From Plantibacter flavus (lineage in GTDB: Bacteria; Actinomycetota; Actinomycetes; Actinomycetales; Microbacteriaceae), in NCBI RefSeq assembly GCF_002024505.1, contig NZ_CP019402.1, positions 2,790,001 to 2,854,000 of the forward strand: DNA of 64,000 nt. The letters run 5' to 3'. Under the pieces are notes generated by a model that worked only from the letters and a program-made list of their open reading frames with translations, did not search any database and was not told the origin of the DNA. This document shows positions 40,732-54,084 of the stretch, in pieces. Position 1 is the first letter of the stretch. Each line of letters starts with the position of its first letter. The position numbers and the translations under genes are program-made.

Positions 40732-41925
40732 TCAGGCGGAGGTGGGCTCGTACTGCCGGCGGTCGCCGACGACGCCCGCGAAACGGAACGGCGCACCCGT
40801 CTCGCGCGGACGGTCGGAGTCGTGGACGTCGGCCGACGCCGCGTCCTCGAGGAGCTGCAGGTAGCGGGCGTCGTCGACGACCGTCCGCGCATCGAGCTGC
40901 GCACGGTTCAGGTCGCTCCGCAGAGCCGAGCGGTAGCCCGGACGCACGATGCCGCTGAAACACTCCGCGACCGCACCCGATCCGTAGCTGAGGAACGCGA
41001 TGCGCCGACCGGTGAGGTCGTCGTCACCGTCGAGCAGCGCGAGCAGCGCGAGGTACACGGAGGCCGTGTAGCTGTTCCCGATCCGGCGGTTGTACCCGGT
41101 CGTCGGCTCGATCTGTGCGTCCAACTCCTCCTGGGTGCGCCCTGCGCCGAGCGACTTGGCCAGGTGCCGGTGCGCCTTGATCGCCATCTTCGTGAACGGC
41201 TGGTGGTAGCAGAAGTGGTCGACCTCGGAGAAGTCCGCTCCGCCGCGTGACCGGTAGTCCGCCCAGGCCCCCTCGATGGCGTCCTGGTAGGCGGAGATGG
41301 ACAGCTTGCCGTCGACGATCGCCGTCGCGCTGTGGTTCGGGCGCCAGAAGTCCATGACGTCCTGCGTGTAGACGCCGGTCGCGGTCTCGAGCTCGAGGAT
41401 GGCCGGATCGGCGGCAACGAGCATGGCGACGGCCCCGGCACCCTGCGTCGGCTCGGCGTTGGAATGCAGTTCGTACCGCGCGACGTCGCTCGCGATGACG
41501 AGCACGGTCTCCTCGGGGTTCCGTGCCACGAGTGCAGCCGCGAACTGCAGCGCCGCGGTGGCCGAGTAGCAGGCCTGCTTGAGCTCGACCACGCGGACCG
41601 CCTGCGGCAGGCCGAGCAGCCGGTGCACATAGACGCCCGCTGACTTCGACTGGTCGATCCCGGACTCGGTGGCGAACAGGACGGTCCGGAGCCGGTCGCT
41701 GCCGTGCCGTTCGATGATCGGCGCTGCGGCTGCGGCGGCCATCGTCACGATGTCCTCGTCGGCGGCCGGGACGCTCATCTCGCTCTGGCCGAGACCGACG
41801 TAGTACTTGGCGGGCTCGACGCCGAAGCGCCCCGCGAGCTCGGCGAGGTCGATGCGGTTCGCACCGGTCGCGAAGGCGATGTCGTCGATGCCGACGGCGG
41901 GGCTGGTGGTCTGGTTGGTGTTCAC
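40732..41925 (-). CDS. mvaS: Hydroxymethylglutaryl-CoA synthase
   Basis: A 397-aa enzyme condensing acetyl-CoA with acetoacetyl-CoA to HMG-CoA, the first committed step of the mevalonate pathway. Catalytic residues are visible: Glu87 in FATESGIDQSKSAG, the acylated Cys119 in LKQACYSATAAL, and the His of FCYHQPFTKMAIKAH. PTTGYNRRIGNSYTASVYLALL is the conserved C-terminal block. The start is GTG. It is the last gene of the five-gene mevalonate operon, 59 bases after mvaA. The C-terminus is about 10 residues longer than that of typical bacterial enzymes. Confidence 0.95.
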   Translation of the reverse strand: MNTNQTTSPAVGIDDIAFATGANRIDLAELAGRFGVEPAKYYVGLGQSEMSVPAADEDIVTMAAAAAAPIIERHGSDRLRTVLFATESGIDQSKSAGVYVHRLLGLPQAVRVVELKQACYSATAALQFAAALVARNPEETVLVIASDVARYELHSNAEPTQGAGAVAMLVAADPAILELETATGVYTQDVMDFWRPNHSATAIVDGKLSISAYQDAIEGAWADYRSRGGADFSEVDHFCYHQPFTKMAIKAHRHLAKSLGAGRTQEELDAQIEPTTGYNRRIGNSYTASVYLALLALLDGDDDLTGRRIAFLSYGSGAVAECFSGIVRPGYRSALRSDLNRAQLDARTVVDDARYLQLLEDAASADVHDSDRPRETGAPFRFAGVVGDRRQYEPTSA

Positions 41926-41984
41926 GTGCGGAGTGCTCCGTTCGAGCGTCGACGATGCACCGGTCCCCCGGTGCGGTGGGAGGG

Positions 41985-43052
41985 TCAGGCGGGCGCGCCG
42001 GCCGCGGTCTGCGCGCTACGTTCGAGCTTCAGGTGGGCGGCCATGAGCTCACCGGGGTTGGTCTGCGCGGCGAGGAGTGACAGTTCGCCGCACCAGACGG
42101 CGGCAGCACACAGGACGGCGAGTCGCCGGGCGTTGGCGCCGGGTTCACGGTCCTCTCGGCACCCGAGGCGGGTGAGGTTCTCCTCGACGAAGCCGAGCCC
42201 CTTGCCGTTGCCGACCGTGCCGACGATGAGGTTCGGCAGGGTGCAGGAGAAGTAGAGGTCGCCGTCGTGGACCTCGGCGTGCGTGACGCCCTGCGAGCCC
42301 TCGACGATGTTCGCGGCGTCCTGGCCGGTCGCCAGGTAGAACGCGAGCAACATGTTGGCGTAGTGGGCGTTCGCGCTCCGCAGGCCACCGGCGAGGATCG
42401 TCCCGACGAGGTTCTTGCGCACGTTCAGCTGCACGATCTGCTCGGGCGTCGTGTGCAGGAACCGCTCGACGATCGCCCGCGGGATCGTCATCTCGGTGAC
42501 GACGTTCTTGCCACGACCCAGGATGCCGTTGACCGCGGTCGCCTTCTTGTCGGAGCAGAAGTTGCCGGAGATCGAGCCGTACCGGAGCATCGGCCAACGC
42601 TCCATGATGTACGGCATGAGACGGTCCGCCGCGAGCGTGACCATGTTGTGCCCGGACGCGTCACCCGTGCGGAACTCGAGGCGCAGGAAGAGCAGGTTGC
42701 CGGCGATCTGCGAGTTGATCTCGATGAGTTCTGCGAAGTGGCTCGACTGGGCGACGACGGCCTGCAGCTCGGGGAGGCTGCGCTCGATCTCGCGGAGCGC
42801 CTGCAGGGCGTCGCCGGCGGAGTCGACCTCGAACAGCACGGAGCGGCTCATCCGCTCGTCGACGAGCGTCGCGCGGATGCCGCCGGGGACCATGGAGGAG
42901 ATGCGGGCGCCCCGACGGACCGACGGCCAGAGCGGGCTCTCGTAGGTGGCGAGCGGGACCTCCTGCTCGCCCTCCATGACGTTGCCGCTCAGGTGGAGCG
43001 GACCGATCCACTTGAGTGGGACCGGTGCGACGCCGTCGGGTTCGTTGCTCAT
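41985..43052 (-). CDS. mvaA: Hydroxymethylglutaryl-CoA reductase, class I
   Basis: A 355-aa soluble enzyme reducing HMG-CoA to mevalonate. Sequence features are those of class I (NADPH) enzymes: the catalytic Glu38 in ATYESPLWPSVRRG, ISGNFCSDKKATAVNGILGR with the catalytic Lys near 169-170, the Asp in ATGQDAANIVEGSQG, and the C-terminal catalytic His in NPGELMAAHLKLERS. There is no membrane domain, as expected in bacteria. ATG 43052 overlaps the mvaK2 stop (ATGA); the longer open frame above it is antisense-like shadow. In Streptomyces CL190 the gene order is the same but a type 2 IPP isomerase precedes the reductase; that gene is missing here. Confidence 0.95.
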   Translation of the reverse strand: MSNEPDGVAPVPLKWIGPLHLSGNVMEGEQEVPLATYESPLWPSVRRGARISSMVPGGIRATLVDERMSRSVLFEVDSAGDALQALREIERSLPELQAVVAQSSHFAELIEINSQIAGNLLFLRLEFRTGDASGHNMVTLAADRLMPYIMERWPMLRYGSISGNFCSDKKATAVNGILGRGKNVVTEMTIPRAIVERFLHTTPEQIVQLNVRKNLVGTILAGGLRSANAHYANMLLAFYLATGQDAANIVEGSQGVTHAEVHDGDLYFSCTLPNLIVGTVGNGKGLGFVEENLTRLGCREDREPGANARRLAVLCAAAVWCGELSLLAAQTNPGELMAAHLKLERSAQTAAGAPA

Positions 43053-44266
43053 GCGTGGTGTTCCGTTCCGCCCCGGAGGACGTCGTGCTGCTCGGCGAAG
43101 GCACGAGCGTAGGTGGATCTGATGGATTCGACCGCGTCGTCGTCGGTACGGCTGATCTCCGACGGCCCCCACGGGCTGTGGGCGGCGTCGATGAGTCCGG
43201 TCGGCGGGTGCACCGTGAGCGGGAGCCGCTCGATGCCGTGCGCCGACCAGTCGTCTTCGAGGGCGGCGGTGGAGACGGACTGGCCGATGAACGCGATCCC
43301 GCAGTCGCCACCACCGGCACCGGACGACTTGGCCGCCCCGCCGAGACGCTCGGCGGCGTCGCAGAGCTGAGCAAGCGCGGCGGTCTCGATGTCGACGCCG
43401 GCGTCGCGTCCGAGACCGGCGAGCGTCGCGCGCGCGGAGCGGACGGCACCGAGCACGAGGGCCGGGTCCTCGTCGTTCAAGCCGATCGTGAGGGCGTCGA
43501 CGGCGGCGCGACTGGCCCCGAGGAACGAGGTGTAGTGGGCGGTCTCCGCCCATTTGCGGGACTGCAGTTCGTCGACGAGACGCGTGGTCGAGGCGGGCTC
43601 GCCGGTCCAGCCGACGAGGAGCCGGAGCGAGGTCGGCGGTGACAGTCGCTCGAGTCCCAGCTCGGCCCAGGGGTCGCGGAGGGCGGCGAGCACCCCTTCT
43701 CGGTGGCGCACCTCGCGCAGCCGAGCCCGATCGGGTGAGGTGTAGCGGAGCCAGCCGCCGAACATGCTCGCCGCGAGGTCGCCACCGGAGGCTGCCGGCG
43801 CGACGTCGATGGTGGCGAGGATCGCGAGCTTGAGCATCTGCGTCCGGGTGAGGTCGAGCTGGTAGAACTCGTCGAGGGCGCGGATGGTGGCGGTCGTCAC
43901 GGCGGCACTCGAGCCGAGGCCGAACTTCCTGCCGCTCGCGTCGTCGAGCTCGCTGGTGATGGACAGCGCGGAGAACCGCTGCGCCACGCCGAGCTCGGCG
44001 ACGAGGGTCTCCATCGTGCTCACGGCGGAGAGGACGTGGTCGAGCGGGCGTTCCTCGTGCTCGACGACGACCCCGTTGCGGTTGCGACGCCAGATGATGG
44101 GCGCTCGGCCGTACTGGTCGGAGAAGATGCGGCCCTCGTGCTCGCTCGCTTCGAGTCGGACGGTGACGCACCGGTCGACCGCGACGAGGATGGAGGGGTG
44201 CCCTGGTTCGACGACGGCGTACTCGCCGGCCACGAAGAGCTTGCCGGGCGCCTTGATCTCGATCAT
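43049..44266 (-). CDS. mvaK2: Phosphomevalonate kinase
   Basis: A 405-aa GHMP-family kinase that phosphorylates 5-phosphomevalonate. It starts MIEIKAPGKLFVAGEYAVVE, the classic phosphomevalonate kinase N-terminus, has the ATP-binding KFGLGSSAAVTTATIRAL and the C-terminal SSGAGGGDCGIAF glycine loop. Length is slightly greater than in Firmicutes (about 360-370 aa). ATG 44266 has GGAAGGAG four bases upstream and overlaps the mvaD stop. Part of the operon mvaK1-mvaD-mvaK2-mvaA-mvaS. Confidence 0.95.
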   Translation of the reverse strand: MIEIKAPGKLFVAGEYAVVEPGHPSILVAVDRCVTVRLEASEHEGRIFSDQYGRAPIIWRRNRNGVVVEHEERPLDHVLSAVSTMETLVAELGVAQRFSALSITSELDDASGRKFGLGSSAAVTTATIRALDEFYQLDLTRTQMLKLAILATIDVAPAASGGDLAASMFGGWLRYTSPDRARLREVRHREGVLAALRDPWAELGLERLSPPTSLRLLVGWTGEPASTTRLVDELQSRKWAETAHYTSFLGASRAAVDALTIGLNDEDPALVLGAVRSARATLAGLGRDAGVDIETAALAQLCDAAERLGGAAKSSGAGGGDCGIAFIGQSVSTAALEDDWSAHGIERLPLTVHPPTGLIDAAHSPWGPSEISRTDDDAVESIRSTYARAFAEQHDVLRGGTEHHA

Positions 44267-45321
44267 CGCGCTCCTTCCGTTGTCTGCTCGCCCGCCGATC
44301 CGCCGGGCTCCGAGGTGATGAGCCTCGCGCCCCGTCCGGCTCTGGCGGGGATGACGCCGATGTCGGGCTGCGCCTCGAGGATCCGAGTCGCGAGCTCGTC
44401 GACCGCGTCGGCTCGACACAGGATCTTCACGTTCGGGCCGGCGTCCATCGTCGCATAGCATTCGAGGCCGTCGCCTCTGAGGTTTGCGACGAGATCGAGC
44501 AGTTCCACGCTCGCCGGTCCCCAGTACCTGACCGGCGGCTCGGCGCCGAGCATCGTGGCGTGCATCCGCATCGCGTTCCGCTCGGCGATCGTGCCCACCG
44601 CGGTGAAGTCGGCGCGGGCGATCGCGGCGAGCATCTCCTCGAGTTCGACGGGGGTGCGTTCGACCCAGGCGGGGTAGTACGGGGAGGTGTCGACCGTGCG
44701 CCGCATGCCGTCGCGACTGGAGACCGACTTGGCCCGGGCGTCGAGGACGGTGAGGACCATGCCGAGCTCGAGTCCGCGCGCGGGCACCGCCTCGGCGAAG
44801 GAGCTCTCGTCGTCGTGCCCGGCGTGCCAGACGGCGATCCCGTCGAAGATCGAGCGGGAGGCCGATCCCGAGCCACGGCGCGCCAGCCGGGAGAGGGCAC
44901 GGCGATCGAGGTCGAGTCCGAACGCGGTCGATGCGGCGAGCGCCAGTGCAGCGAAGCCGGAGGCCGAGGAGGCGAGGCCGGCGCCCGTGGGGATCTCGTT
45001 GTGGGAGTCGACGGTGACGCGCTCGTCTCGGTCGGCGAGCGCGCGCACGAGGTCGATGAAGCGTGTGACGCGGGAGCGGGCGGTGCCCTCGAGGGCTCGT
45101 CCGCCGAGGAGCACGACGTCGTCGGGTGCGTCCGTCAGTCGCACCGTCGTCGTCGTGGGCGCTGCGTCGAGGGTCAGTGAGAGGCTTCCGGTCCACGGGA
45201 GGATGAGCGCCTCGTCCCGCTTGCCCCAGTACTTGACGAGGGCGATGTTGGGGTTGGCCAGCGCGGTCGCGGCGCCGTCGGCCGACGCGGTCTCGGCGTG
45301 CTGCTGTGGGGTCGGGGTCAC
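44263..45321 (-). CDS. mvaD: Diphosphomevalonate decarboxylase
   Basis: A 352-aa GHMP-family enzyme that converts diphosphomevalonate to isopentenyl diphosphate with ATP. It carries NIALVKYWGKRDEALILPWT, the Ser/Thr-rich TGAGLASSASGFAALALAAS phosphate loop, RRGSGSASRSIFDGIAVWHAG and the catalytic Asp region, and the C-terminal TMDAGPNVKILC, all diagnostic of MvaD. GTG 45321 overlaps the mevalonate kinase stop (GTGA); the frame upstream is not used. Second gene of the mevalonate operon. Confidence 0.95.
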   Translation of the reverse strand: MTPTPQQHAETASADGAATALANPNIALVKYWGKRDEALILPWTGSLSLTLDAAPTTTTVRLTDAPDDVVLLGGRALEGTARSRVTRFIDLVRALADRDERVTVDSHNEIPTGAGLASSASGFAALALAASTAFGLDLDRRALSRLARRGSGSASRSIFDGIAVWHAGHDDESSFAEAVPARGLELGMVLTVLDARAKSVSSRDGMRRTVDTSPYYPAWVERTPVELEEMLAAIARADFTAVGTIAERNAMRMHATMLGAEPPVRYWGPASVELLDLVANLRGDGLECYATMDAGPNVKILCRADAVDELATRILEAQPDIGVIPARAGRGARLITSEPGGSAGEQTTEGAR

Positions 45322-46256
45322 GCGTAGTCCTCCGCGTCGATCGTCCAGGTGCCGAGTGCTCCGGCCTCGAGGAGGGCTTGCGAGATGCGTCGGGCTGACG
45401 CGGGGTCCGCGGCGAGGGTGATGATGCATCCGCCCTGCCCGCCGCCCGTGAGCTTCGCGCCGAGGGCGCCGTTCGCCGTGGCGACCTCGATGAGCGCGGT
45501 GATGGCGGGGTGGCCGGCACCGAGTTCGTCGAGGACGACCTGCGCCGTGTTCATGCGGGTCCCGAGGTCGTCGCGGCGGTCCGCGGCGAGGTCGGCGACG
45601 CCCGCCACGGTCCCGCGTTCGAGCTCGGCCAGCAGCGCCCGGCCACGCTCGGGGTGCAGCTCGACGAAGGCTCTGACGTCGGCGACCGCCTTCCGGGTCG
45701 ACCCGCGCGCACCGGTGTCGGCCACGACGAAGCTGCCGCCGAAGCGGATCGGCGGATGGTCGACCCGGCCGGCGGTGAAGAGGATGGGTGTCGAGGCGCT
45801 CGTGGCCCGGGCGTCGAGACCGCTGGGCGTCCCGTGGGCGACGCGTTCGCCGCGCTGCACGAGCTCGAACCGGTCGGCGTCGTCGAGCGCCACGCCGTGC
45901 AGGTCGGCGACGGCGTCCACGATCGCGTTGGCCGCTGCGGCGCTCGAACCGAGGCCCCGTCCGATCGGCAGCGTCCCGCGGACGACGACCTCGACGCCGG
46001 CCGGGGCCGCACCGACGTGCGCGAGGGTCTCGAGGACGGTGGTCCCGAGCGGATCGGAGGCGTCGAGCGGGCCGAGCGAGATCTCGGTGTCGAGGACCGA
46101 GGCCCCGTCGATGCGCCGGGCGGTCGCCTCGACCCGGAGCGACGGGATGGGCAGGGCGACGGCTGGAGAACCGTAGACGACGGCGTGCTCGCCCAGCAGG
46201 ATCGCTTTGGCGTGCGCGAAGCCGCGACCGGTCGCAGCCGTGTGCTCTGTCGTCAT
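45318..46256 (-). CDS. mvaK1: Mevalonate kinase
   Basis: A 312-aa GHMP kinase phosphorylating mevalonate. Motifs: AKAILLGEHAVVYGSPAVAL at the N-terminus, the ATP loop PIGRGLGSSAAAANAIVDAV, HGTPSGLDARATSAS and the C-terminal AKLTGGGQGGCIITLA. It is the first gene of the operon. ATG 46256 was chosen over a frame extending to 46433 because a -10-like CAGAAT ends six bases before it and the family N-terminus begins here. It is divergent from gltB, with a 14-base palindrome 25 bases upstream of the start. Confidence 0.94.
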   Translation of the reverse strand: MTTEHTAATGRGFAHAKAILLGEHAVVYGSPAVALPIPSLRVEATARRIDGASVLDTEISLGPLDASDPLGTTVLETLAHVGAAPAGVEVVVRGTLPIGRGLGSSAAAANAIVDAVADLHGVALDDADRFELVQRGERVAHGTPSGLDARATSASTPILFTAGRVDHPPIRFGGSFVVADTGARGSTRKAVADVRAFVELHPERGRALLAELERGTVAGVADLAADRRDDLGTRMNTAQVVLDELGAGHPAITALIEVATANGALGAKLTGGGQGGCIITLAADPASARRISQALLEAGALGTWTIDAEDYA

Positions 46257-46262
46257 CTCACC

Positions 46263-46268
46263 ATTCTG
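46263..46268 (-). promoter_or_regulatory. Possible -10 element CAGAAT for mvaK1
   Basis: On the minus strand CAGAAT is followed by six bases and the ATG at 46256, with no ribosome site, matching the spacing of the other leaderless-type starts in the window. Confidence 0.4.
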
Positions 46269-46280
46269 GTCCGAAAAACA

Positions 46281-46294
46281 TGCAGCTGGCTGCA
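46281..46294. promoter_or_regulatory. Palindrome TGCAGCTGGCTGCA, possible operator
   Basis: Two 6-base arms (TGCAGC and GCTGCA) flank a 2-base centre. It sits about 13 bases upstream of the proposed mvaK1 -10 element, in the spacer/-35 region, where a repressor would block the mevalonate operon promoter. Confidence 0.4.
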
Positions 46295-46471
46295 CATCGG
46301 TCGTCCGGTCGCGATCCGATCCACCACGGGCCGGCTCGTGAGCCGCCCCGCAGCGCATCCGGGCGCTGCGCGATGGGCCGTCGACGGGAGCCGCCGGAGC
46401 GCTCACGGCGTGTCCCATACGTACCGGAAACACCCAGCCTACGCCGATCGGCCGGGTTCGGCTCGTTACGG

Positions 46472-46645: not shown

Positions 46646-49600
46646 GTGATCTCGTCTTCCGTTCCACCGCGCCCGCGCACCGCAGCACCATCGCCCCTGC
46701 CCGACCTCGTCGATCGCCAGACCGACAAGAGCGACTGCGGCGTCGGCTTCATCACCCGTAAGGACGGCGTGCAGAGCCACGACGTCATCGCCCTCGGCGA
46801 CACCGCCCTGTGCGCCATCCCCCACCGCGGCGGCATGTCCTCCGAGGGTGTCGGCGACGGAGCGGGCGTGCAGATCGACCTCTCGGTCGACTTCTTCAGC
46901 TCCCTCGTCGGCAAACCACTCGTCGCCGGGCGGTTCGGCGTCGCGAACGTCTTCCTCCCGGTCGACCACGGTCGGATCGGCGACGCCGAGGCGCTCATCG
47001 AACGCTCGCTCGTCGAGGCCGGCTTCACCGTGCTGCTCGCCCGTGCCGTGCCGACGGTCGACGCCGTCCTGCGCCCGAAGGCCGTGCAGTACCAGCTGCC
47101 GATCCGGCAGTGGATCTTCGAGCCGTCGGACGACGCCTCCACGGAGGACCTCGACCGGCGCGCGCACGCGGCCCTGCTCGCGATCGAGGCCACCGCCTAC
47201 ACGGACCTCACCCTCGACGGCCTGTACCCGCTGTCGCTCAGCACGCGCACCCAGGTCCTGAAGGGACGCCTCAACTCCGGCGAGGTCATCCCCTACTTCG
47301 CCGACCTGGCCGACCCCCTGCACCGGGTGCGGACCCTCGCCTTCCACACCAGGTTCTCGACGAACACCGCTCCCCACCCGTCGATGGCGCAGCCCTTCCG
47401 CCTCATGGCGCACAACGGCGAGCTCAACACCGACCGCAAGAACCGTCTGTCCGAGACGGCGCTGGCGGCATCGCGGGGCCGGAAGATCATCCGGGCCAGG
47501 GGCCAGTCGGACAGCTCGCGCCTCGACCAGACGCTGCACAGCCGCGTCGTCGAGGACGGCCTCGAACTGCTCGAGGCGGTCGTATCGGTCATGCCCCCGG
47601 CCTGGGAGAACGATCGCACGCTGAGCCGCGAGGTTCGGGCGATGCTCGAGTACTTCTCGCTCGTCGAGGAGAAGAACGACGGCCCGGCCGCCCTCATCTT
47701 CAACGACGGCACGACCGTGGGCGCCCGGCTCGACCGCCTCGGCCTGCGCCCGCTGCGCAGCGTCGAGACGGCGGACTACCTCTGCGTCACCTCCGAGGCG
47801 GGGCAGCTGCCGTTCCCGGACGACGAGGTGGTCCACCGCGGTCGCATCGAGGCCGGCGGCATGCTCGCCTACGACCACCGCACGGGCACGCGTCTCCGAA
47901 CGGGCGAGGCGCTCGAGCTCCTCGCGGCACGCAAGGACTACCCGGCGATGCTCGCCGCATCGGCCACCGACCTCGACGCGCTCGAGGACCGGGGCGTCCC
48001 GGTGTCGGCACCGACGGCCTCGGCGGACGACGCGTTCGCCTACCGCGGTGGGCTGAGCCAGGTGCAGCGCTATGTCGCCTACTCCCTCAACCAGGAGAGC
48101 TTCCGGTTCATGACGGACCCGATGCTCGCCTCGGGCAAGGAGCGGATCTCGGCGATGGGCTACGGCAACGCCATCAACGCCCTGTCCGACCAGGAGGGCG
48201 GCCTGGCGAAGTACTTCTCCCAGCGCTTCGCCCAGGTGACCAACCCGCCGCTCGACAGCATCCGTGAGGCTGACGGCATGACCCTGCGGGTCGCGCTCGG
48301 TCCGAAGCCCGGTAGCGGCACGGTCGGCACGAAGCAGCTCGTCCTCCGATCCCCCATCGTCAGCGAGGACGAACTGCGGCGCCTCAGCGCTCAACACGAG
48401 TCGCCGGTCGCGTGGTTCGACATCCTCTACCGGCCCGAGGTGGACGCGCAGGCGAACGCCGACGCGCTCGAGGCCGCCGTCGAGCGCGTGGCCGCGGAGG
48501 TCGCCGGGTTCGCCGCAGAGAACGGCGGTATCGCGATCCTCAGCGACCGCGGCGTCCACGCGGAGGGTGCCGCCCTGCCGCTCATCCTCGTCGTGGCGGC
48601 CGTCAACCAGCGACTCATCGACGACGGCCTCCGGCTCCGCGTGTCGCTCGTGGTCGACAGCGGCCAGCTGCCGTCCTCGCACCACGTCGCCTCCGCCCTC
48701 GGCTTCGGTGCGTCGGCGGTGCACCCGCTCGCGGTCCGCCTCCGCGCCGAGCAGCAGCACCCCGACGAGGTGGAAGCCGCGTTCCGACGGTTCGCGTACG
48801 CCGCCGAGAAGTCGCTCCTGAAGACCATGGGTCGGGTCGGCCTGTGCACCGTCGAGAGCTACATCGGCGGCGAGTTCTTCGAGCCGAACTACCTCGACAC
48901 GAGCGACCCCGTGCTCGCGCGCGCCTTCCCGCACCTCCGCGCCCCCGTCGGCGGCGTCGGGTTCGCCGGGATCGCCCGGACGGCGAGCGCCTGGCACCAG
49001 CGCGCCCTGACGACGTCGAGCGACGCGGACGTCCCGCTCCTCGGCCTGTTCAAGGAACGCGCCGAGGGCGCCGGCCACTCCTACGGGACGACCGCGGTCC
49101 GCGGCTTCGTCGACCTCACCGAGGAGCCCGTGCAGCTGCCGCGAGCGGGCACGACCGCCGTCGACCGCGACGGCGGCACGCTCGGCGACGACCCGCTGCG
49201 CCTCCACACCATCGGGAACCTCGAGGACGCGTTCGGGATCGACGACGACGCCTACCAGCACACCTCCTTCGACGCCCTCGACGACGACGAGATCGACGCC
49301 TTCACCATCACGCCCGGCTACCGCTCCTTCGTCCAGTCGATGACCACCGAGCGGCGCCGTCGCCCGGCCGCCCTCCGCGACGTGCTCGTGCTGCCCGAGG
49401 ACATCACCCGGCTGACCACCCCGGAGGAGTTCGCGCGCGAGCTCGATCGGCTCGGCCCCGTCGGCAACTCCTCGATCGTCGTCCGCGGCCTGCGCGCGAC
49501 GCGGACCGAGCATGGTCGGCACCGGCTGCAGCTCACGGGACCGCTCGCGGGCGACCTCACCCGGGTCTCGGCGCTCGGCGAGTACTACGTCCACCGCTTC

Positions 49601-52228
49601 GGCGGCGAGGTGACGGGGCACTGGATCTCCGGTGGCGACCTCATCGTCGAGGCGACGGGGTCCGCCGACGACTACTTCTCGATGCTCGTCGAGGGTGCCG
49701 AGAGCATCTCGACCGACCTCGTCCAGCCGGCGAGCGAGATCACCCGATCCCTCGCGTCCGGGGCGATGAGCCACGGCGCGCTCGTGGCGACCGCGCACGA
49801 GGCGGTGGCCCACGGCACCAACATGGTCGGCGGGATGTCGAACAGCGGCGAGGGCGGCGAACACCTGTCCCGCTACGGGACGATCCGCGGCTCACGCATC
49901 AAGCAGTTCGCCTCCGGGCGCTTCGGCGTCTGGGCCGGCTACCTCGCCGACCCGATGCTGCAGGAACTCGAGATCAAGATCGGCCAGGGCGCCAAGCCCG
50001 GCGAGGGCGGTCAGCTCCCGGCTCCCAAGGTGACGGTGGACATCGCCGCCGCCCGGGGTGGCACGCCCGGCATCGAGCTCGTCTCGCCGCCGCCGCATCA
50101 CGACACCTACTCGATCGAGGACCTCGCGCAGCTCATCCACGACTGCAAGGCGGCACGGGTCCGCGTCGTCGTCAAGCTCGTCTCCTCCGAGGGCATCGGC
50201 ACGATCGCCGTCGGCGTCGCCAAGGCCGGTGCCGACGTCATCAATGTGGCCGGCAACACCGGTGGGACCGGCGCAGCCGCCGTGACGAGCCTCAAGTACG
50301 CCGGACGCAGCGCCGAGATCGGCATCGCCGAGGTCCACCAGGCCCTCAGCGCGAACGGTCTGCGGTCGAAGGTCACCCTGCGCTGCTCCGGCGCGCACCA
50401 GACCGGTCGCGACGTCGTCATCTCCGCCCTGCTCGGCGGCGACAGCTTCGAGTTCGGGACCACCGCGCTCATGATGCTCAAGTGCGTCATGGCGAAGAAC
50501 TGCAACGTGAAGTGCCCGGCCGGTCTCACGACCAACCCGGAGACCTTCGACGGCGACCCACGCGCGCTCGCGCAGTACCTCCTGAACATCGCGCACGACG
50601 TCCGCGAGCGGCTCGCCATCCTCGGCCTCCGCTCGCTCCGCGAAGCCCGCGGTCGCACCGACCTCCTCCACCTCGTCGACCACCCGGCCGCCGTCGCGGA
50701 CCTCGACCTGCGGGCCATGCTCGCGGTCGTCCCCGAGGTCGTCGTCACCGACCCCGTCTACCTGGAGAAGGACTTCACGCTCGACGACGCCCTCATCGAG
50801 CGGGTACGGGCAGGACTCTTCGACGACGGCCGGACGACGCTCGACCTCGGAGCCGAGGACGCCGACGGCGGGATCCGCCTCGGCAACCGCTGGCGTTCCG
50901 TGGGCGGGCAGCTCGCGATCGACCTCGAGCGCATCCTCAACCACGAGCTCGACGACGCCCAGGCGGTGGCGATCCCGTCCGTCGTCACCGACGACCGCGG
51001 CCACCGTTCGCTCGCCGCCGACACCGTGACCATCCGCACCGAGCACTCCGCGGGGCAGTCGTACGCGGCGTTCTGCGTCGACGGCCTGCACTGGCGGCAC
51101 ACCGGCACCTGCAACGACGGCGTCGGGAAGAGCGCCTCCGGTGGCACCATCGCGATCCTCTCCCCCGGCGGCGGCAGCTCGGAGGACGGCGGCAACGTCC
51201 TCATCGGCAACTTCGCGCTCTTCGGGGCGACCGGCGGACGCACCTTCGTCCAGGGCGAGGCCGGCGACCGCTTCGCCGTCCGCAACTCGGGCGCCACCGC
51301 GGTCGTCGAGGGCGTCGGCGATTACGCCTGCGAGTACATGACCAACGGCGCCGTGCTGAACCTCGGCGGCTTCGGTATCGGCTTCGGCAACGGGATGAGC
51401 GGTGGCTTCGTCTACCAGTACGACCCGCGGGGCGAACTGCCGAGCAAGGTCAGTGCGGACTCGCTCCTCCTCGGATCGATCACCGAGGGCGAGCAGGCCG
51501 CGTTCCACGAGGCCGCCGTACTCCTGCTGCTGGAGTGGCACGTCGAGGCGACCGGCTCGCCGCTCGCCTCCCGGTTGCTCGCCGAGTGGGACACGGCGAG
51601 GCACCAGTTCGTGTTCGGCATGCCCCGCGCGCTGCTCCTCTACCAGGACAGCGACGCGATCCTCGCGGCCAAGAGCCGGAAGGAACTCCTCGACGAGCTC
51701 GGCGCGGCCCTCGCGGCACAGCAGCTCCGCACCTTCAAGCTCGACTACCGCGACCGCCGGCCGGTCCGCGGCGGTCGTGCCCCCGGACTCGGCGAACCGG
51801 CGGCGGACCCGCAGGACGTCTACGCACTCCTCACGAGCTACACGGTGCTGAAGCTCGCCCAGGAGGTCGCGCTGTCCCGCACACCCGGCGTCGACGACCC
51901 GTCGCACCCGCTCGTGCAGGCGAGCGTGCGCACGCTCATCCTCACCGAGGACTTCTTCGTCATGCAGCGGGTGCAGCGGGCGGCTCGAGAGCTGCTCGAA
52001 CGGTACGACGACGGGGCGCTCGCCGCCATGATCGCGGCGAAGCGACTCCACGACTACACGGAGGCCCTGCGGCTGCGGAACGTGCGGTCGATCGACCACC
52101 CGGGCACCACGGGGTGGATCATGCACCAGCACGCCAAGAACCGTGCCCGATCCGCAGCGACCGGTGGCGCCGAAGCACTCCTTGCATCGGCCGCTCTGGC
52201 CGAACTGACGCTGGCGGGTGGCCGATGA
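46646..52228 (+). CDS. gltB: Glutamate synthase large subunit, long variant
   Basis: A 1860-aa protein (usual GltB about 1500 aa) converting glutamine plus 2-oxoglutarate to two glutamates. Cys31 of KSDCGVGF would be the class II amidotransferase nucleophile after a 30-aa propeptide. The glutaminase and central domains extend to about residue 910. A roughly 108-aa insertion (about 915-1022) precedes the FMN synthase domain, which begins SGAMSHGAL at about 1039 and contains MSNSGEGGE. The cluster cysteines 1280, 1286 and 1290 are spaced x5 and x3 rather than x5 and x4. The GXGXG beta-helix lies at about 1490-1595, followed by an extra 260-aa tail with helical segments. GTG 46646 has GAGGGG nine bases upstream; ATG 46517 would add 43 residues. 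No gltD follows; a diflavin reductase gene overlaps the stop. Confidence 0.9.
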   Translation: MISSSVPPRPRTAAPSPLPDLVDRQTDKSDCGVGFITRKDGVQSHDVIALGDTALCAIPHRGGMSSEGVGDGAGVQIDLSVDFFSSLVGKPLVAGRFGVANVFLPVDHGRIGDAEALIERSLVEAGFTVLLARAVPTVDAVLRPKAVQYQLPIRQWIFEPSDDASTEDLDRRAHAALLAIEATAYTDLTLDGLYPLSLSTRTQVLKGRLNSGEVIPYFADLADPLHRVRTLAFHTRFSTNTAPHPSMAQPFRLMAHNGELNTDRKNRLSETALAASRGRKIIRARGQSDSSRLDQTLHSRVVEDGLELLEAVVSVMPPAWENDRTLSREVRAMLEYFSLVEEKNDGPAALIFNDGTTVGARLDRLGLRPLRSVETADYLCVTSEAGQLPFPDDEVVHRGRIEAGGMLAYDHRTGTRLRTGEALELLAARKDYPAMLAASATDLDALEDRGVPVSAPTASADDAFAYRGGLSQVQRYVAYSLNQESFRFMTDPMLASGKERISAMGYGNAINALSDQEGGLAKYFSQRFAQVTNPPLDSIREADGMTLRVALGPKPGSGTVGTKQLVLRSPIVSEDELRRLSAQHESPVAWFDILYRPEVDAQANADALEAAVERVAAEVAGFAAENGGIAILSDRGVHAEGAALPLILVVAAVNQRLIDDGLRLRVSLVVDSGQLPSSHHVASALGFGASAVHPLAVRLRAEQQHPDEVEAAFRRFAYAAEKSLLKTMGRVGLCTVESYIGGEFFEPNYLDTSDPVLARAFPHLRAPVGGVGFAGIARTASAWHQRALTTSSDADVPLLGLFKERAEGAGHSYGTTAVRGFVDLTEEPVQLPRAGTTAVDRDGGTLGDDPLRLHTIGNLEDAFGIDDDAYQHTSFDALDDDEIDAFTITPGYRSFVQSMTTERRRRPAALRDVLVLPEDITRLTTPEEFARELDRLGPVGNSSIVVRGLRATRTEHGRHRLQLTGPLAGDLTRVSALGEYYVHRFGGEVTGHWISGGDLIVEATGSADDYFSMLVEGAESISTDLVQPASEITRSLASGAMSHGALVATAHEAVAHGTNMVGGMSNSGEGGEHLSRYGTIRGSRIKQFASGRFGVWAGYLADPMLQELEIKIGQGAKPGEGGQLPAPKVTVDIAAARGGTPGIELVSPPPHHDTYSIEDLAQLIHDCKAARVRVVVKLVSSEGIGTIAVGVAKAGADVINVAGNTGGTGAAAVTSLKYAGRSAEIGIAEVHQALSANGLRSKVTLRCSGAHQTGRDVVISALLGGDSFEFGTTALMMLKCVMAKNCNVKCPAGLTTNPETFDGDPRALAQYLLNIAHDVRERLAILGLRSLREARGRTDLLHLVDHPAAVADLDLRAMLAVVPEVVVTDPVYLEKDFTLDDALIERVRAGLFDDGRTTLDLGAEDADGGIRLGNRWRSVGGQLAIDLERILNHELDDAQAVAIPSVVTDDRGHRSLAADTVTIRTEHSAGQSYAAFCVDGLHWRHTGTCNDGVGKSASGGTIAILSPGGGSSEDGGNVLIGNFALFGATGGRTFVQGEAGDRFAVRNSGATAVVEGVGDYACEYMTNGAVLNLGGFGIGFGNGMSGGFVYQYDPRGELPSKVSADSLLLGSITEGEQAAFHEAAVLLLLEWHVEATGSPLASRLLAEWDTARHQFVFGMPRALLLYQDSDAILAAKSRKELLDELGAALAAQQLRTFKLDYRDRRPVRGGRAPGLGEPAADPQDVYALLTSYTVLKLAQEVALSRTPGVDDPSHPLVQASVRTLILTEDFFVMQRVQRAARELLERYDDGALAAMIAAKRLHDYTEALRLRNVRSIDHPGTTGWIMHQHAKNRARSAATGGAEALLASAALAELTLAGGR

Positions 52229-52251
52229 ACGCGCCCGGCCCGGAGGAGATC

Positions 52252-54084
52252 ATGACCGAGACACGGACACCGACGGCGATCGGATCGAGCCCGGTGCTCT
52301 TCGAGGCGCTCGCCGCGCTCGGCAGCAGCGCCGACGACCCGTTCATCCCGGCGGACGCACCGTTCAGCCCCGAGCAGCGTGTCTGGCTCGCCGGTTTCCT
52401 GGCCGGTGTCCGCTCCAGCGCGATCGACGCCACCGACGCAGGTGGCCGCACGCCGCAGCTCGCCCTGCACGTGCTCGTCGGGACGCAGACGGGCACCGCG
52501 GAGGCCATCGCGGAGGATCTCGGCCGAGCCGCCTCCGGCTACGGCGTGGCGGTGACGACGATCGGGCTCGACGACGTCGAGGTCGACCGGCTCCCGACGA
52601 TGGGACACGTCGTCGTCATCACCTCCACGTACGGCGAAGGTGAGATGCCCGACAACGCCGAACTGTTCTGGGAGACGCTTCAGGCGAGCACCGCACCACG
52701 CCTCGACGGCCTGAAGTTCTCCGTGCTCGCGCTCGGCGACTCCGGATACGACGGGTTCTGCCAGGCGGGCAAGCTCATCGACACGCGCTTGGAGCAGCTC
52801 GGCGCGGAACGCATCCTCGCCCGCGTGGACTGCGACGTCGACTACGAGGAGCCCGCCGCGGCGTGGACCACGCAGGCGCTGTCGCTGTTCGGCGCCCTCG
52901 CCCCGACGGACGCCGATGCGGCACCCGCTCCCGCGCCGGCGGCCAAACCGGCGAAGAAGCCCGGCCGCACGCGTTCACCGTGGACCCGCAAGACGCCGTA
53001 CGGCGCGACCCTCGCCGTCAACCGCGTCCTGTCCGGGCCCGCCTCGTCGAAGGAGATCCGGCACTACGAGTTCGACCTTGGCGACAGCGGCATCGAATAC
53101 GCGGCCGGCGACGCCCTCGGCGTCATGCCGAGCAACGACCCGGCGCTCGTCGACGCCATCATCGCCGAACTGGACGCGACCGCGGACGAGTCGGTCGACG
53201 GCTCGACCCTGGCGGACCGGCTCACCAACGGGTTCGAGATCCGCACCCCGTCGAAGGACCTCGTGGCCGAGCTCGCCGACCGCGCGCCGGGCTCGGAGCT
53301 GGCGGGGATCCTCGCGCTCGCCCAGGCGGAGACGCTCGACTCCTGGTTGCGCGACCGCGACATCCTCGACCTCCTGCGCTCCACCGCGGTCCGGTTCGAC
53401 GCCGCCTCGCTCCTCGACGTGCTGCGTCCGCTCCAGCACCGCGCGTACTCGATCTCGTCCAGTCCGCTGGCGGCCGACGGGCGCGTGCACCTCACCGTCG
53501 CGAGCGTCCGGTACGCGGTCGGCGACCGTCTGCACGGCGGCGTCGCGTCGACGCATCTCGCCGACCGGGTCGCGGAGGGTGCCACCAGCGGGATCTTCGT
53601 CTCCGCGAACGCTGGCTTCCGGGTGCCCTCGGACGACGATGCACCGCTCATCATGGTCGGCCCGGGAACCGGGATCGCGCCGTTCCGCTCGTTCCTCCAG
53701 GAGCGCCGCGAGCGCGGGGCGACGGGTCGGAACTGGCTGTTCTTCGGCGACCAGCACCGAGCGCACGACTTCATCTACGAGGACGAACTCGGCGAGCTGC
53801 TCACCGGAGGGGTGTTGGACCGTCTGGACCTCGCGTTCTCCCGCGACCAGCGCGAGAAGGTGTACGTCCAGACCCGGATGCGCGAGAACGGCAAGGAGCT
53901 CTACGCCTGGCTCGAGGAGGGCGGCCACTTCGCCGTCTGCGGTGACGCCTCACGGATGGCGAAGGACGTCGACCAGGCGCTGCACGAGCTCATCGCCGAA
54001 CACGGCGGACGTTCGACGGAGGCCGCGGCCGAGTACGTGCACACGCTGAAACGCGAGAAGCGCTACATCCGCGACGTGTACTGA
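52252..54084 (+). CDS. CysJ-like NADPH diflavin reductase, probable partner of the GltB variant
   Basis: A 610-aa soluble diflavin reductase. A flavodoxin (FMN) domain covers about residues 65-205 (LHVLVGTQTGTAEAIAEDLG, TSTYGEGEMPDNAELFW, ALGDSGYDGFCQAGK). After a Pro/Ala/Lys linker come the FAD domain with HRAYSISSSP (Arg397, Tyr399, Ser400), and the NADPH domain with MVGPGTGIAPFRSFLQERRE, GDQHRAHDFIYEDEL and VQTRMRENG. It ends KRYIRDVY, the CysJ-type C-terminal Tyr. In sulfite reductase this protein feeds CysI, but no cysI is present; it lies directly behind gltB. An ATG at 52225 overlaps the gltB stop (ATGA); ATG 52252 was chosen for GGAGGAG just upstream. Role as electron donor to GltB is an inference. 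Confidence 0.88.
   Translation: MTETRTPTAIGSSPVLFEALAALGSSADDPFIPADAPFSPEQRVWLAGFLAGVRSSAIDATDAGGRTPQLALHVLVGTQTGTAEAIAEDLGRAASGYGVAVTTIGLDDVEVDRLPTMGHVVVITSTYGEGEMPDNAELFWETLQASTAPRLDGLKFSVLALGDSGYDGFCQAGKLIDTRLEQLGAERILARVDCDVDYEEPAAAWTTQALSLFGALAPTDADAAPAPAPAAKPAKKPGRTRSPWTRKTPYGATLAVNRVLSGPASSKEIRHYEFDLGDSGIEYAAGDALGVMPSNDPALVDAIIAELDATADESVDGSTLADRLTNGFEIRTPSKDLVAELADRAPGSELAGILALAQAETLDSWLRDRDILDLLRSTAVRFDAASLLDVLRPLQHRAYSISSSPLAADGRVHLTVASVRYAVGDRLHGGVASTHLADRVAEGATSGIFVSANAGFRVPSDDDAPLIMVGPGTGIAPFRSFLQERRERGATGRNWLFFGDQHRAHDFIYEDELGELLTGGVLDRLDLAFSRDQREKVYVQTRMRENGKELYAWLEEGGHFAVCGDASRMAKDVDQALHELIAEHGGRSTEAAAEYVHTLKREKRYIRDVY

Follow-up and report, generated by a model that had tools for sequence, protein, structure and literature searches.

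A long GltB paired with a diflavin reductase: a probable two-component NADPH-dependent glutamate synthase and iron-sparing stand-in for GltBD

How is a glutamate synthase (GOGAT) supplied with electrons when the gene that follows its large subunit encodes a diflavin reductase and not GltD, and why would a cell keep such an enzyme? The question is raised by a 64,000-nucleotide (nt) stretch of Plantibacter flavus DNA (contig NZ_CP019402.1, positions 2,790,001 to 2,854,000), referred to here as the window. It contains a gene for a long GltB-type large subunit of 1,860 amino acids (aa; 46646..52228, + strand, GTG start at 46646, stop at 52228), followed on the same strand by a gene for a CysJ-like reductase of the NADPH–FAD (flavin adenine dinucleotide)–FMN (flavin mononucleotide) type (52225..54084). 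A sequence-only reading had described two overlapping or nearly overlapping genes with neither gltD nor cysI nearby, and this description held. The gltB stop and a possible reductase start share an ATGA (52225..52228); an alternative ATG at 52252, preceded by GGAGGAG, leaves a gap of 24 nt. Either start is possible, giving 619 or 610 aa, and Pfam recognises all the domains of a diflavin reductase in the second protein and those of a GltB in the first. No GltD relative lies within the window, and the single NIR_SIR match of the genome falls about 1.1 Mb from the pair, in a 907-aa frame that we took as a candidate NirB. We propose that the pair is very probably a two-component NADPH-dependent glutamate synthase in which the reductase replaces GltD. 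The fuller explanation, that this enzyme is an iron-sparing stand-in for GltBD, is likely.

We collected pair loci by scanning genome contigs with an alignment of the C-terminal extension of the long GltB, which yielded 235 confirmed stretches, and kept the best 80. The adjacency that the sequence-only reading had led us to look for was found throughout: the reductase gene lies directly after the long GltB gene in 80 of 80 named loci, a few of them cut by contig ends or frame-broken. This recurrence argues that the pair is not a chance association. The loci come from actinobacteria (Plantibacter, Curtobacterium, Pseudoclavibacter, Herbiconiux, Mycetocola, Arenivirga, Microbacterium and other Microbacteriaceae, Streptomyces, Rhodococcus, Nocardia and Mycobacteroides) and from alpha- and betaproteobacteria (Rhizobium/Agrobacterium/Shinella and kin, Hyphomicrobium and Methylobacillus). 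GltD is directly beside the pair in none of the 80, and a partial GltD lies about 8 kb off in two. Long GltB also occurs in nine plasmid records. Five were inspected, and the reductase adjoins the long GltB in the four that are annotated and in one unannotated plasmid stretch. The annotated plasmids label the two genes mostly "glutamate synthase-related protein" and "sulfite reductase subunit alpha", the reductase otherwise being called "sulfite reductase flavoprotein subunit alpha" or cysJ, and their other flanking genes vary between records. Taking the window, the 80 named loci and five plasmid stretches together (86 loci), a 4-nt overlap with an in-frame reductase start codon is present in 66.

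Within the Microbacteriaceae the C-terminal extension was found in 17 of 298 genomes, and a reductase of at least 56% identity in the same 17 among 299 genomes. The two genes are adjacent in all 17; in one (G257) the contig ends within the reductase gene, whose initial portion adjoins GltB. The three strongest other reductase matches in the family (L025–L027, 36–47% identity) have no gltB in flanks of about 1.5 kb. A phylum sample of 396 genomes added two more adjacent pairs and three stand-alone reductase relatives (49–53% identity) with no gltB in the flanks examined. Long frames of about 1,270–1,540 aa among the reductase relatives of this sample may, judging from their length, be NasN-like. 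A fused gltB–reductase gene was considered and rejected, as the long open frames around the reductase in the window are another frame through gltB. Nor was a fusion seen among 120 listed of 206 GltB relatives, since the longest of these frames is 1,924 aa.

The two proteins also vary together. Seven of the 86 loci were dropped as cut or broken (L069, L071, L074, L087, L094, L116 and L119), and for the remaining 79 full-length pairs the GltB and reductase distance matrices correlate at r = 0.974, a value reached in none of 2000 permutations. Shared descent by itself inflates r, and therefore shared odd placements are the telling part. In both trees, for which we give FastTree supports taken after re-rooting, Streptomyces groups with Microbacteriaceae, as does a Tsukamurella plasmid copy (support 1.0 for GltB and 0.97 for the reductase), and Streptomyces groups with Curtobacterium (1.0 and 0.91). 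Because these odd placements coincide, the pair seems to move between bacteria as one unit. A Rhodococcus–proteobacteria grouping is likewise found in both trees, its node having a support of about 0 for GltB and 0.997 for the reductase.

The genomes were then compared for GltD and CysI. The window genome, a single 4.21-Mb contig, carries a canonical gltB (1,551 aa) followed by gltD (485 aa) about 640 kb from the pair, which here thus comes in addition to GltBD. It has no second full-length relative of the reductase, the other match being a 156-aa frame. GltD (TIGR01317) is present in 76 of 80 genomes, searched as two sets of 40 (36 and 40 positive). Where the pair occurs, gltD is therefore usually present too, in these 76 genomes as in that of the window, and none was found in four: Mycetocola reblochoni, Methylobacillus rhizosphaerae, Methylobacillus arboreus and Streptomyces sp. 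GQFP. The completeness of these four is not given, and for Streptomyces sp. GQFP (G715) 29 of 83 first-look GltD candidates were scored. No canonical GltB frame was found in them either, and they keep the long GltB with its reductase, while three control genomes hold both kinds of GltB. Loss of canonical GltB thus appears to go hand in hand with loss of GltD, and the long GltB seems able to do without GltD. GltD as the electron donor of the long GltB is on this count not supported, and service by a standard gltD, which the sequence-only reading had weighed as an objection, is made unlikely. A glutamate dehydrogenase-family match is present in all seven genomes, and hence the pair need not be essential in those that lack gltD. 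CysI was sought in 40 of the 80 genomes. The TIGR02041 cut-off of 756.55 bits was exceeded in none, and 14 had no match at all; a tie of the reductase to cysI, looked at as CysI presence, was not seen.

As a separate observation, two of the genomes without canonical GOGAT contain short stand-alone FMN-synthase-domain proteins in 440–450-aa frames (G712:C15:172076-172834 and G715:C1:4245423-4246196). Similar proteins occur in two control genomes (G707 and G716) and are possibly methylglutamate synthase-like.

Why a second glutamate synthase should be kept is suggested by the DNA upstream of gltB. We scanned the 300 bp before the mature GltB N terminus at 79 loci for the 19-position IdeR/DmdR/DtxR iron box, whose consensus we take to be TWAGGTWAGSCTWACCTWA. 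A box matching at least 16 of 19 positions precedes gltB in 20 of 55 actinobacterial loci, and the rest of these loci (1,089,339 bp) contains none. With the threshold lowered to 15 of 19, 24 loci match, against 2 sites elsewhere. The 20 boxed loci span six genera, and related loci among them are not independent: Streptomyces (14 of 19), Pseudoclavibacter (2 of 3), Herbiconiux (1 of 1), Tsukamurella (1 of 1), Nocardia (1 of 1) and Microbacterium indicum (one of three other Microbacteriaceae). Two Mycobacteroides loci score 15 of 19. When the 420 bp upstream of each boxed gene was shuffled 60 times, keeping base but not dinucleotide content, the best scores were 12–14.

Neighbouring genes add to this picture. 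A HemS-like gene comes next after the reductase in 32 of 86 loci (tblastn, E ≤ 1e-6, within 900 nt), the queries, from Hyphomicrobium, Tsukamurella, Mycobacteroides franklinii, Ketogulonicigenium and one Streptomyces copy, being themselves among the loci counted. The actinobacterial HemS-like neighbours are largely in genera with an iron box. The scanned Mycobacteroides, Hyphomicrobium and Streptomyces proteins pass the Pfam HemS model, and that of Ketogulonicigenium misses it (14.6 versus 24 bits). The Ketogulonicigenium plasmid carries a siderophore uptake cluster downstream of the pair. In Rhodococcus a flavodoxin gene is next after the reductase in six of seven loci. In Methylobacillus a TonB receptor lies within 6 kb upstream in five of five loci and FecR in four, and Pfam identifies a sigma-70-like factor, FecR and a TonB receptor at one of these.

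An iron-poor enzyme would fit such a setting. GltBD holds one [3Fe-4S] and two [4Fe-4S] clusters, or 11 Fe (PMC8097209, in part). Because GltD has two [4Fe-4S] clusters and the reductase none, the pair would need about 3 Fe per protomer, a count that assumes a [3Fe-4S] cluster in the pair, and would spare 8. Canonical GOGAT is itself reported to fall when iron is short: both chains are lowered under iron limitation in Caulobacter (PMC3751524, in part), and GltB is lowered when a mixture of metals triggers an iron-starvation response, in a study that cites Bacillus subtilis as precedent (PMC9938188, in part). In Staphylococcus the iron-sparing RNA IsrR is predicted to target gltB2 (PMC9410917, in part). 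Under low iron the pair would thus substitute for GltBD, and in several actinobacterial genera IdeR/DmdR-type regulators would control it directly. This iron-sparing interpretation, which best unites the anatomy of the enzyme with the boxes and the neighbouring genes, has good support in Streptomyces and in several further actinobacteria, and a role of this kind is reasonably likely in the relatives of the window's genus; for that genus itself, which lacks the box, it is unproven.

Several results weigh against our explanation. No iron box of at least 15 of 19 was found in Plantibacter (best 12), Curtobacterium (12), Rhodococcus (13) or Mycetocola (11), nor in any of 24 proteobacterial loci. 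The window has none at up to 3 mismatches, and of six boxes at up to 2 mismatches in the window genome (none in a reversed control) none is at this operon. No HemS gene was detected behind the reductase at the Plantibacter, Curtobacterium, Mycetocola, Rhodococcus, Methylobacillus and Rhizobium/Agrobacterium/Shinella loci. Most pair-bearing genomes retain GltBD, and a role distinct from iron sparing is possible for that reason. IsrR is reported to cause no significant change in gltB2 mRNA stability (PMC9410917, in part). On the enzyme side, the GltB-paired reductases do not form an exclusive clade, as six unpaired ones fall among 81 paired (common-node support 0.24). Weak CysI-model matches occur in 24 of the 40 genomes searched, and two Methylobacillus come nearer the cut-off (636 and 657 bits), on contigs other than that of the pair.

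Some of these results lend weight to an alternative that we consider unlikely, namely the same two-component NADPH glutamate synthase kept for another reason, such as kinetics, redox stress, O2 tolerance or glutamate for a special growth phase, with the iron boxes as a lineage-specific addition. The absence of both box and HemS from the Plantibacter, Curtobacterium and Rhizobium/Agrobacterium/Shinella loci would agree with this, as would the differing flanks of the plasmid copies. No iron theme was noted at the rhizobial and Plantibacter loci inspected, except for a weak TonB-receptor match in Shinella (27% identity, L138), and Fur boxes are not enriched upstream (mean best score 10.06 versus 9.75 in shuffles). 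What speaks for iron is that three iron-linked contexts, an IdeR box with HemS, a flavodoxin, and a FecR/TonB receptor, arise in separate genera.

We compared the long GltB with the solved glutamate synthases. Like the large subunit of GltBD (PDB 6s6x, 2vdc and 7mft), it has an N-terminal Cys glutaminase domain (GATase_2, residues 31–432, 46736..47941), a central domain (Glu_syn_central, residues 475–746, 48068..48883), an FMN-binding synthase domain with three Cys (Glu_synthase, residues 1019–1328, 49700..50629) and a GXGXG β-helix (residues 1441–1616, 50966..51493). With the canonical GltB of the same genome it shares 31–45% identity over blocks. The Cys nucleophile (residue 31, in CGVGF) is invariant in 79 of 79 long GltBs, as are the residues matching Azospirillum Arg31, Asn231 and Asp273, which we take to have active-site roles in the glutaminase. 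Invariance extends to the IKQ-ASGRFG stretch, at its Lys, Ser and Arg, and to the three cluster Cys. The latter, predicted to bind a [3Fe-4S] cluster (50483..50515), are spaced C-x5-C-x3-C in all 79, one residue shorter than the C-x5-C-x4-C of the solved enzymes, and the cluster type may differ because of this change. The residue counted as Met479 in a pairwise alignment, named as a possible gate between cluster and FMN (PMC8097209, in part), is kept.

Two regions specific to this family are added relative to GltBD. An insertion before the FMN domain (about residues 813–1020, 49082..49705) measures about 207 aa, against about 47 in Azospirillum brasilense GltB, and so contributes about 160 extra residues. 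The C-terminal extension (about residues 1664–1860, 51635..52225) reaches about 150–180 residues beyond the solved enzymes. Neither region has a sequence relative in the PDB, the insertion having none at E ≤ 0.001 and two matches at E of about 0.2, to designed proteins. The extension is predicted to be all-helical, with a predicted local distance difference test (pLDDT) score of 76.5; the insertion model is weak overall (pLDDT 63.9) and holds one confident α/β block. Neither model has a PDB fold match at E ≤ 0.001. We guess that one or other region is a docking site for the reductase, the helical extension being a candidate.

The pair also resembles ferredoxin-dependent glutamate synthase (Fd-GltS; PDB 1ofd and 1llw) in that its large subunit would work without GltD and take electrons from another protein. 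It differs in having a dedicated NADPH reductase gene, and in that residues 915–932 of the 1llw chain, in the FMN domain, have no counterpart in the long GltB, whose flanking aligned blocks adjoin. We take this stretch to be an Fd-GltS-specific insertion with a role in ferredoxin binding. The likeness raises the alternative that ferredoxin or flavodoxin feeds GltB and that the reductase mainly reduces such a free carrier. The flavodoxin gene of the Rhodococcus loci would suit this, as would the cofactor content of the large subunit, which alone resembles that of Fd-GltS (PMC8097209, in part). We nevertheless regard it as improbable: the reductase has a flavodoxin domain of its own, the Fd-GltS stretch between residues 914 and 933 is missing, and in the other genera no gene related to the Rhodococcus flavodoxin was detected immediately behind the reductase.

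Also hard to sustain, and to our minds very doubtful, is the proposal that the long GltB is a glutamate synthase relative with changed chemistry, using another 2-oxo acid or amine donor to make a different product. The protein scores 974.5 against the NCBIfam equivalog cut-off of 1047, and has large insertions and an altered Cys spacing; a canonical GltD is also present in 76 of the 80 genomes. Against this, the glutaminase Cys, Arg, Asn and Asp, the IKQ-ASGRFG residues and the FMN-domain motifs are conserved, and the protein is the sole full-length GOGAT found in four genomes, though each of these also has the glutamate dehydrogenase-family match.

The reductase shares the NADPH–FAD–FMN architecture, motifs and C-terminal RDVY of CysJ (PDB 6efv). 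It comprises an FMN-binding flavodoxin domain (Flavodoxin_1, 52471..52860), an FAD-binding domain (FAD_binding_1, 52978..53553) and an NADP-binding domain (NAD_binding_1, 53653..53973), and ends in KRYIRDVY before the stop at 54084. The FMN, FAD and NADPH motifs of CysJ are kept in 81 reductases, with exchanges at a few listed positions. These proteins contain 2–7 Cys in total, mostly 3–4; the GltD of the window genome has eight, of which seven fall into two groups near the N terminus. The reductase differs from CysJ in its gene partner, GltB and not CysI, and in its score with the curated CysJ model TIGR01931 (597.6 bits, below the cut-off of 668.15); it passes the looser model NF004859, "sulfite reductase subunit alpha" (479.2 versus 432). 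That the reductase is a sulfite reductase subunit placed beside gltB for regulatory reasons, as its best-named matches (CysJ) and the two near-cut-off Methylobacillus CysI matches might suggest, is extremely improbable and was rejected, given the missed TIGR01931 cut-off, the lack of CysI above cut-off in the 40 genomes, the lone NIR_SIR match in its 907-aa frame and the strict pairing with GltB.

Some relatives of the reductase stand apart. Stand-alone diflavin reductases akin to the paired one, with no gltB directly beside them, were seen at L127 (232-2061, − strand), L136, L040, L041 and L042. In Mycobacteroides a gene for a universal stress protein is found about 1.2 kb from the stand-alone copy, and the gltB pair about 3 kb from it. 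At L061 a second reductase-like protein, a 416-aa frame without the flavodoxin half (G583:C1:1530234-1531397), follows a GltB–reductase pair.

We thus return to the two-component NADPH glutamate synthase, for which complex formation, the electron path, the cluster type, the iron count and the physiological role are what we infer from these comparisons. The N-terminal Cys of GltB would hydrolyse glutamine, and the ammonia would be channelled to 2-oxoglutarate at the FMN site, where the resulting iminoglutarate would be reduced. Electrons would pass from NADPH to the FAD and then the FMN of the reductase, on to the three-Cys cluster of GltB and finally to its FMN. GltD, whose two [4Fe-4S] clusters mark the NADPH entry in GltBD, would be bypassed, the diflavin reductase taking its place. 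This route, put forward by the sequence-only reading, is the best reading of the 80 adjacent loci, the shared 17 genomes, the distance co-variation, the four genomes with no gltD found and the lack of CysI above cut-off.

Other features surround the locus. In the window leader, known riboswitch models gave two matches only, both below their gathering scores, and a strict scan found no sigma-70 promoter. A GC-rich leader core (GCCCGCGGCGAGCGCU-CA--G--GCAGCCU) is common to Streptomyces and Curtobacterium (e.g. L088 and L108), about 45–165 nt before the mature GltB N terminus. Its consensus fold energy is −11.9, versus −0.3 for shuffled columns, and it is possibly an RNA element or a leader peptide, although its conservation may be recent because the two genera are sisters in the GltB tree. 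Two loci without an iron box have upstream palindromes, TCTATAC-N7-GTATAGA 228 nt before the mature GltB N terminus at L129 and GGTATACC 191 nt before it in Curtobacterium (L108), which are candidate operators of other regulators. Directly upstream in the window and divergent from gltB is a mevalonate-pathway-like run (40732-46433, − strand) of HMG-CoA (3-hydroxy-3-methylglutaryl-coenzyme A) synthase, HMG-CoA reductase, kinases and a decarboxylase, as read by eye from translations. Similar open reading frames also flank the Curtobacterium pair.

A diflavin module as the NADPH input of a nitrogen-assimilation enzyme has a likeness among known systems. NasN, the mycobacterial NADPH nitrate reductase, is a fused molybdoenzyme. 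It is described as monomeric (PMC11001197 and PMC7816997, both in part), whereas here the module is encoded by a gene of its own and serves a glutamate synthase. The part of a 2021 review consulted here names GltBD and Fd-GltS, the fused NADH-GltS, an NADH-dependent form from Synechocystis and single-domain frames of archaea; a diflavin-fed form is not among them (PMC8097209). In the open-access literature searched we recognised no paper on a GltB–diflavin reductase pair. We lean, with some reserve, towards a glutamate synthase class of its own, additional to GltBD, Fd-GltS and fused NADH-GltS and composed of GltB, its own diflavin reductase and added docking domains. Such a class would have evolved as an iron-economy isozyme that replaces GltBD in iron shortage, would spread among distant bacteria as a two-gene unit, and would be the sole full-length GOGAT in a few genomes.

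Genome-based models likely misassign both genes, because plasmid annotations mostly call them a glutamate synthase-related protein and a sulfite reductase subunit alpha. Glutamate synthase occupies a central place in ammonia assimilation, and a diflavin-fed form would mean that its electron-input module is exchangeable, as in NasN. If our proposal is true, an iron-repressed, iron-poor stand-in would be a direct answer to how cells make glutamate when GOGAT is lowered.

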